Part shown: one piece after another, positions 12,581 through 57,621 of the stretch
How the letters are laid out: each line of letters starts with the position of its first letter
How positions within the stretch are numbered: position 1 is the first letter of the stretch
Source: Acinetobacter pseudolwoffii
GTDB taxonomy: Bacteria; Pseudomonadota; Gammaproteobacteria; Pseudomonadales; Moraxellaceae
DNA length: 64,000 bases
Assembly: GCF_002803605.1 (NCBI RefSeq)
Contig: NZ_PHRG01000002.1
Span: 124,001-188,000, forward strand
Direction: 5' to 3'
Notes under the pieces: model-generated
Databases searched by the model: none
Told to the model about the DNA's origin: nothing
Seen by the model: the letters and a program-made list of their open reading frames with translations, nothing else
Translations under genes and position numbers: made by a program

Positions 12581-12656
12581 TCTCCAATAGCTCAGTCGGT
12601 AGAGCGACGGACTGTTAATCCGCAGGTCCCTGGTTCGAGCCCAGGTTGGAGAGCCA
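12581..12656 (+). tRNA. tRNA-Asn (anticodon GTT)
   Basis: The 76-base cloverleaf is complete. The acceptor arms TCTCCAA/TTGGAGA pair fully. The D arm is GCTC/GAGC, and the anticodon arm is ACGGA/TCCGC with loop CTGTTAA (anticodon GTT at 12614-12616). The T arm is CCTGG/CCAGG with TTCGAGC. The discriminator G and the CCA end are encoded. Confidence 0.98.
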
Positions 12657-56268: not shown

Positions 56269-56587
56269 GCTGATTTTGGCTCCACGGGATGGTCTGAACA
56301 ACCATGCCACAATGTGACTTGAGAGAGCGCATATTCTACTGTGAAATAAGGAAATCGGCTAGATGGCAAATACGAAAACTACGGCTGAAATATTCTGTAT
56401 TTTTAAAATATTGTGTTTATTTTCAGGCAGGAAAATTGAATGTAGTCGCGTAGATTAACACAATTTGTTAAAGAAAAATCAAAACCGATTAACAATAATT
56501 TCACTTAAGAAAATTGTATTATTTTTCAACAGCAAGACCACTTAAAATGCGTACAGAACTTATTCTTGAGCCGTTATAAAAAACTTA

Positions 56588-56836
56588 TTAAGGATAGACT
56601 AAAGCTTCTCGGGATAGACTGAAACAGTCGAGTTCATTTTTTAGCTCATCTCTCTGTCGGCGAGTTGCACTACTGAAATAATTTTGTATCCAGCTATCCC
56701 CATTCCGGGCTCCATTGCAGGATTTAAGACTCTGCCCCGCTGTTCTCCCTTTTCGAGCCTGTCTGTATGAGCAAACTATATCGCCTGCTTCAATCGACTT
56801 CCAGTAATATCCGGTAGCCCAGATTATTCCGATCAC
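56588..56836 (-). CDS. Doubtful 82-residue reading frame in the AT-rich gap
   Basis: An 82-codon frame with ATG at 56836 and less AT-rich than the DNA around it. The product would be Cys- and Arg-rich (RQARKGRTAGQSLKSC, then ATRRQRDELKNELDCF). No good ribosome-binding site precedes it and I do not recognise it. The base composition differs from its surroundings, so it may be a remnant of foreign or older DNA rather than a working gene. Confidence 0.25.
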   Translation of the reverse strand: MIGIIWATGYYWKSIEAGDIVCSYRQARKGRTAGQSLKSCNGARNGDSWIQNYFSSATRRQRDELKNELDCFSLSREALVYP

Positions 56837-57621
56837 TCATCTTAATATATGAACTCTATTCAAAGATACCTAAATCTCACATATAAGACCCCACCATAGT
56901 TTCTAATAAAGAGTGAGAATTAAAATCAATAGATCTACTTTAGTAAATGGATTTCCAGGATATTAAGCCTCTTGTTATTAATATATTGACTTAGCAAATT
57001 TATTTAAAAATTTCTTATTTTACCTCTATGAAATAGGTTATTTTCAAGCTAATCAATTGAAAATATACAGCTTAAATTCAAACTGATTCTCGGTCTCTAT
57101 TCTTATGCAAAAATTCAGAATATATAAGCATCATCAGACATGAATTAATGAAAGTTTTTAGGCTATTATTAAAAAAATCACTACTCATAATGAAGAAAAT
57201 AAGCAATATTAAAATTTTGTTACTTTTTCATTTTCTGACTGATATCCATCTTTATTCTAATAAAAAACCATGCAATAAATACCTGTAATTCCTATAAAAA
57301 TATAGAAACAACAAATCTATATTTGATAAGATGTTGAAATCAAAAATAGCCTTATATCAGCAAAGAATCTACATAATTAATGACTTCATCAGTAAATTTG
57401 ATGATTTTATGTTAACCTCTACGCCAATTGCTGAGGAAATGTCCACATTCAGGACGCATGAATCATCCTCTTTTCTGCTGCAGATATGAATATCCAATTG
57501 ATATTCAGACGCTGGTTTTTTTATTTTCTGTAGCTTCACTGCTCTGTCTAATCTAGAGCCTTAATCTGTTGCCAATGATTTAATTTTCAAAAACAAAAGG
57601 TGACCCGCTTAAGGAGTATGT
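56837..57621. other. Low-complexity AT-rich spacer ending in a structured leader
   Basis: Together with 56311-56587 this makes 1.3 kb with only one doubtful frame. From 56840 to about 57420 it is mostly A/T with many short stop-ridden frames and no clear hairpin. From 57421 a GC-richer, structured segment begins, described separately. The symporter promoter must lie in or before this segment. Confidence 0.5.
57433..57522 (+). promoter_or_regulatory. Two-hairpin leader ending in a T-run upstream of the symporter gene
   Basis: The first stem is GAGGA (57433-57437)/TCCTC (57466-57470) with an inner GTCC/GGAC pair. The second is TGAATATC (57487-57494)/GATATTCA (57500-57507) with loop CAATT. A seven-T run starts nine bases later (57516-57522), about 100 bases before the ATG. 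The layout (aptamer-like fold, then terminator-like stem) resembles an attenuator or riboswitch. The ligand is unknown. Confidence 0.45.

Follow-up and report, generated by a model that had tools for sequence, protein, structure and literature searches.

In Acinetobacter, the mRNA of a sodium:solute symporter gene is rather likely to begin with a cis-acting, structured 5' leader, about 200 bases long, with translation as its most likely target. The leader is a narrowly distributed element of a kind already known, outside the known Rfam classes, and the evidence for it is modest. It was analysed in a stretch of 64,000 nucleotides from Acinetobacter pseudolwoffii (the window), where the bounded RNA element covers 57420-57621, about 200 bases. 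The stems that first drew attention to the region (57433-57522) form its 5' half. They are present in the sequence as originally predicted, 100-190 bases 5' of the symporter ATG. The fold was then thought to end at 57522; the leader in fact continues as far as the ATG and is best conserved at 57541-57616. The features are listed in Table 1.

Table 1. Features of the leader, its promoter region and the genes that follow, in window coordinates
Feature	Coordinates	Strand	Remarks
Inferred promoter/operator	57385-57413	+	conserved block in aligned upstream regions
Palindrome TCATCA-N7-TGATGA	57386-57404	+	overlaps weak -35 TTCATC
-10-like TATGTT	57408-57413	+	17 bases from the -35
Outer stem around P1, GAGGA/TCCTC	57433-57437 / 57466-57470	+	original prediction
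P1 hairpin, inner part of first fold, GTCC/GGAC	57441-57444 / 57452-57455	+	original prediction
P2, encloses P2a and T-run	57477-57484 / 57527-57534	+	RNAalifold
P2a, second fold of original prediction, TGAATATC/GATATTCA	57487-57494 / 57500-57507	+	original prediction, RNAalifold
T-run	57516-57522	+	read in sequence; inside P2
P3 hairpin GCTCT(G)...AGAGC	57541-57559	+	sequence highly conserved
P5, proposed switch point, CTTAA/TTAAG	57560-57564 / 57609-57613	+	RNAalifold; overlaps start of ribosome-binding site
P4	57568-57573 / 57599-57604	+	GUUGCC/GGUGAC here, GUCACC/GGUGAC in most
Ribosome-binding site AAGGAG	57611-57616	+	
SSF (sodium:solute symporter) gene, 545 aa	57622-59259	+	Pfam PF00474
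Putative transporter small subunit gene, 43 aa	59271-59402	+	NCBIfam NF038354

The symporter gene and its partner

The symporter matches PF00474 with an E value of 1.2e-32 and 113.8 bits, against a gathering score of 22.8. Four NCBIfam models match it as well, none at its cut-off. Its neighbours in the PDB are DUR3 urea symporters and a choline transporter, all of them weak, and the anti-phage library holds no match to it. The small subunit scores 67.7 bits with NF038354 (cut-off 40), and the two genes form a two-gene transporter unit. A small-subunit gene also adjoins the symporter homologues on all three plasmids inspected. No paper was found under the name 'putative transporter small subunit'.

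Homologues of the symporter are patchily distributed, with 6 among 398 genomes of the phylum (the window's included) and 3 among 295 of the family of Aliidiomarina. The neighbouring genes are mostly the same in Acinetobacter (purL, dGTPase). They differ in other bacteria and therefore give no consistent clue to the substrate.

Conserved pairing in the leader

An ortholog of the symporter, at an E value of 1e-100 or better, occurs in 20 of 175 Acinetobacter genomes, and the same 20 genomes all carry the leader at a consistent position before it. The set includes records of A. lwoffii, A. variabilis, A. indicus, A. pecorum, A. albensis, A. celticus and Ca. A. avistercoris. These 20 leaders, 16 of them distinct, were aligned by sequence only. 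RNAalifold draws P2, P2a, P3, P4, P5 and a doubtful P0 in the alignment; P1, taken from the original prediction, was added to the structure. Of the 640 cells of the whole structure, 92.7% are paired, and double changes occur in 13 of its 40 pairs; none of 500 shuffles reaches either value. When the structure is slid, 33.9-42.0% of cells pair. Further pair types are not more numerous than in shuffles (26 vs 24.7, with 150 of 500 shuffles as high).

Kinship among sequences can mislead, and substitutions were therefore permuted within helices along the tree for three sets of rows, namely all rows, without L020, and without L020 and L021. For pairs kept, this tree-aware permutation gave p < 0.0005, 0.0005 and 0.001, respectively, for the whole structure, and p < 0.0005, 0.002 and 0.0065 for P2 and P2a together. 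When compensated double changes only were counted over the whole structure, the values were 0.0045, 0.023 and 0.14. Taken singly, P0, P1, P3 and P5 do not reach significance in this permutation. A p value of 0.034 for P3, obtained with a midpoint-rooted version, vanished with joint choice of root states. The pair-by-pair form of the test, which has low power with 16 related rows, found none of the 40 pairs at E < 0.05. The covariation that the original prediction had named as support is thus seen in the whole structure and in P2 with P2a, which keep their pairing beyond kinship, but not in any single pair. Both marks of a conserved structured leader were found, that is, pairing beyond relatedness and a constant position before orthologous genes.

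The individual helices contribute unequally. P2 was absent from the original prediction and exceeds every other helix in pairs with double changes (5 of 8). In the sequence-only alignment, 95.3% of its cells are paired over the 16 distinct leaders, and its tree-aware p values for the three row sets are 0.02, 0.06 and 0.07. P2a is paired in 92.0% of cells over the same leaders, with p values of 0.001, 0.0035 and 0.038. In the P1 region, a complementary run of at least 4 bases can be placed in all 16 distinct leaders and one of at least 5 in 12 of them, counts that have no control; the aligned pairs of P1 are unsupported by the tree-aware permutation (p = 1.0). The outer stem GAGGA/TCCTC is not a conserved feature, as it is present in only 2 of 20 leaders, those of the window and of its nearest relative, L003. 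P0, a pairing of a 5' CTC with the GAG of the ribosome site, was dropped; it has no tree-aware support, and transcription probably begins at its 5' arm or downstream of it.

In L018, L019 and L021, the segments that hold the originally noted stems are 29-51% identical to the window, where fourfold degenerate sites are 36-40% identical. These 5' segments drift while their pairing holds; the 5' half of the leader therefore keeps its pairing more than its letters, and the gene-proximal half keeps its letters. Folding energy is ordinary, with a mean z of -1.2 over 16 leaders. The window's fold on its own is not striking: the segment 57420-57540 folds mildly better than its shuffles (z -1.81; 10 of 200 fold as well), and for the 200 bases 5' of the ATG the z is -0.47, with 30 of 100 shuffles as good.

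Upstream regions of symporter homologues were also compared with controls. Of 21 loci given, 20 passed the length filter, and L040 was not in the run; the z across these 20 homologues was -1.88 vs -1.36 for 52 control regions (p 0.06). Two loci, L036 (Pusillimonas) and L040 (Alcaligenaceae), have 300 hairpin-rich bases upstream of the homologue, with z of -5.84 and -5.47. They had suggested strong upstream structure throughout the family, but the comparison with the 52 controls does not bear this out.

A leader peptide, in which a short frame would couple its own translation to that of the symporter gene, is extremely improbable. A frame that starts at leader base 25 with GAGG nearby can be read in L002, L003, L005, L007, L010 and L011, and in L005, L007, L010 and L011 it has three Trp codons within five. 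It is, however, not listed in L004, L012, L014-L019 and L021, and the peptide differs in L002, L003 and L020. No listed short frame is common to all clades.

The T-run and transcription termination

The second fold and the T-run behind it had been described as a terminator-like stem, with an attenuator as one possible function. An attenuator of the intrinsic-terminator type has a GC-rich stem that is followed directly by a U-run and kept in relatives, and this arrangement was not found. The terminator reading was rejected because 8 bases lie between the P2a stem and the T-run, the T-run is inside P2, a run of at least five T is absent in L016-L021 (6 of the 16 distinct leaders), and the terminator scan reported none within 57433-57522. 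It is still true that the window has a stem and then seven T, and that runs of at least five T occur in 10 of the 16 distinct leaders. A mechanism in which P2a and the T-run end transcription near 57522 unless an alternative fold prevents it could draw on both facts. The stem is AU-rich, however, and among the six leaders without the T-run, four (L016-L019) clearly retain the P2a stem; we regard this mechanism as very unlikely. The original reading as a cis-regulatory RNA survives in part, as a structured symporter leader whose pairing is kept across species; the attenuator with a terminator falls away.

The 3' arm and the ribosome-binding site

The gene-proximal half of the leader consists of P3, P5, P4 and the ribosome-binding site. 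P3 is paired in 94.8% of cells over the 16 distinct leaders, and P5, which is nearly invariant, retains all five pairs in 15 of the 16, the exception being L020. Since both helices vary too little, covariation is uninformative for them. P4 shows double changes in three of its six pairs, with tree-aware p values of 0.0015 for all rows, 0.036 without L020 and 0.136 without L020 and L021, so that its significance depends on the inclusion of L021.

Conservation of the letters is strong in this arm in 19 of 20 leaders. Relative to the window, P3 with CTTAATCTG retains 78-84% identity in L018, L019 and L021, and the 3' arm of P4 with the ribosome site retains 81%. The corresponding values for L020, in which P5 is missing and P3 is different, are 38% and 62%. 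In favour of the structured leader, the stretch between P4 and the ribosome site also has a look-alike before the Pseudoalteromonas homologue L115. The predicted pairing of the ribosome-binding site ranges from 0.63 to 0.96 and differs from that of shuffled leaders in at most 1 of 16; because of this resemblance, the covering of the site remains a proposal.

The promoter region and the purL-symporter gap

A second conserved element lies just upstream of the leader. The sequence TTCATCA, followed by 16 bases and then, after one more base, ATG(T/C)TA (57385-57414), is kept in all 20 orthologous upstream regions. Identity to the window is 66-95% over the surrounding segment 57346-57419, against 36-87% at fourfold degenerate sites. 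Both palindrome arms are exact in 15 of the 20 regions (not in L013, L016, L017, L020 and L021). Three further operator-like sites were found in the window's own genome with 3 mismatches each, and none with fewer. From these features, the block may be read as an operator that overlaps a promoter, and transcription would start at about 57419-57422. A consensus promoter scan did not report the block. Its one match on the + strand, 57498-57527, is weak, begins inside the originally noted region and is present in only 1 of 20 sequences, that of the window. An activator-dependent promoter would be compatible with so poor a consensus.

The conserved promoter block is probably a further point of control, at the level of transcription, and control at the DNA level is a serious rival to a regulatory RNA. 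The RNA fold would then be incidental, with proteins acting on TCATCA...TGATGA, and perhaps on GCTCT...AGAGC, and the leader would otherwise be an ordinary untranslated one. In favour of this view, the promoter block matches the best leader segments roughly in conservation, P3 forms an inverted repeat that hardly varies, and the folding energies are those of ordinary sequence. The kept pairing of P2 and P2a is, however, hard to explain as a protein site, as the arms of P2 are 42 bases apart, and the right palindrome arm is changed in 5 of 20 regions. We consider this explanation possible but not probable.

The 1.3 kb gap between purL and the symporter gene, originally called featureless apart from the stems, holds this promoter-like block and also a conserved block of about 215 bases by purL. 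The latter (56320-56535, upstream of purL, which is on the minus strand) shows 75.5-87.5% identity in 11 of the 14 Acinetobacter loci compared, with short matches only in the other three. It has no Rfam match at the gathering score and may represent a promoter or leader of purL that has been conserved. A short AT-rich block at 57187-57233, about 150-200 bases 5' of the promoter, is kept in genomes of the A. lwoffii group; it is 85% identical over 48 bases in L025 and lies within longer matches of 69-74.5% in eight others. The gap also contains a minus-strand frame of 82 aa (56588-56836), without a Pfam match or a second copy in its own genome. Among 14 loci compared by blastn, it is matched in one (L003) and in none of the other 13, and it is perhaps a remnant.

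Distribution of the leader

A covariance model, R1, was built from the 20 leaders and hence matches them by construction. Beyond its 20 source genomes, R1 gave one weak match (G007, E 0.7) among the 175 Acinetobacter genomes, and a search of 293 genomes from the order with an E limit of 0.1 found the window's genome only; in both searches, the filters lose weak matches. On a Pseudoalteromonas plasmid it gave four weak matches, none at the symporter (best E 0.0015). It does not match the upstream regions of L036 or L040, and in 14 more distant loci, comprising the Pseudoalteromonas locus L115 and 13 others, it has no match up to E 1. With no convincing second copy in the genus, other genes give no clue to a ligand.

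Searches at the DNA level gave a similar distribution. Matches to the leader were found in 23 genomes, at the 20 symporter loci and as three short matches elsewhere (L022, L023 and L024), of which L023 lies inside a MazG-family frame and was dropped as a leader copy. Plasmids contain no DNA match to the leader. The pattern of P3 has 19 exact matches, all at symporter loci. Allowing one mismatch adds nine matches elsewhere, six of them inside stop-free frames of at least 155 codons and the others, outside such frames, in L068, L069 and L091. In L091 (about 1490-1560; genome G157, which lacks the symporter), a P3-type hairpin stands beside CCTTAAT...TTAATCTGTCA and resembles the conserved segment of the leader. 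By eye, this hairpin is probably a terminator on the other strand.

Comparison with known RNAs

Riboswitches of the ykkC/guanidine classes often precede transporter genes. The original prediction found no agreement with these or other known riboswitches, and Rfam bears it out, as no class matches over the Acinetobacter leader. At the gathering threshold, the whole window yields only a tRNA (12581-12653). At E up to 10, the segment 56320-57700 yields five matches, all below the gathering score and none over the leader. The leader was not recognised in the titles and the first parts of abstracts of the listed papers on Acinetobacter RNAs, symporter riboswitches or A. lwoffii transcripts, which is weak evidence that it is unpublished.

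A true riboswitch, in which a small molecule or ion, perhaps the symporter's substrate or a product made from it, exposes or hides the ribosome site, is somewhat unlikely in our estimate. The transporter gene, the multi-helix leader, its near-invariant segments and an arm able to cover the ribosome site are all in keeping with one. Sodium:alanine symporters belong to a different transporter family from SSF. Precedents before symporter genes are in print: a TPP riboswitch precedes the SSS symporter gene thiV in Pelagibacter (PMC11452348), and a glycine riboswitch is reported to precede a sodium:alanine symporter gene (PMC5829553). The first resembles the present case in placing a structured leader before a sodium:solute symporter gene, and the second in being a 5' leader before a sodium symporter gene. 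Unlike them, the leader described here has no TPP-class match, whether scored against the gathering threshold or with E values up to 10, and no Rfam match that would relate it to the glycine riboswitch. The riboswitch reading is held with caution because the leader belongs to one gene in one genus, because searches that lose some weak matches yielded no convincing second copy from the 175 Acinetobacter genomes and none extra from the 293 of the order, and because its 5' half drifts fast. Outside P3-P4, the drift nearly equals that of synonymous sites in distant species, which is unusual for an aptamer, and a match to Rfam is absent.

A more specific form of this idea concerns Pseudoalteromonas. 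The motif GTCAC...GTGACGCG...AAGGAG recurs 5' of the homologue in L115, which has 73.7% identity to the symporter. The pattern was written after both sequences had been seen, and since R1 gives no match there, the likeness in P4 is one of motif only. The leader could belong to a fast-evolving, gene-specific riboswitch class that senses the substrate of this family of SSF symporters with a small subunit, that shares its 3' arm (P4 and the ribosome site) with Pseudoalteromonas and whose 5' sensor has diverged, which we think unlikely.

Proposed mechanism and significance

Structured leaders that belong to a single gene and cover its ribosome-binding site are known, and the preferred reading, a cis-acting leader of the symporter mRNA, places the Acinetobacter leader beside them. 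Like them, it has an arm complementary to the ribosome site and a narrow distribution at one gene; unlike in them, the covering of the site is a prediction. Transcription would begin near 57420, and the RNA would form P2 with P2a, P3, P4 and perhaps P1. The CUUAA just 3' of P3 may then pair with the UUAAG that overlaps the first bases of the ribosome-binding site, and P4 would stack within this helix. Opening and closing of this P5/P4 arm would raise and lower translation of the symporter; a ligand, a protein, a small RNA or temperature might shift the balance.

The region upstream of the symporter gene separates into a promoter block, a variable 5' fold and a conserved 3' arm. Should the leader sense the substrate, it would be both a new sensor and a means of finding out what the symporter imports. 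If it does not, it would be an example of a leader in which pairing is kept while the letters drift.
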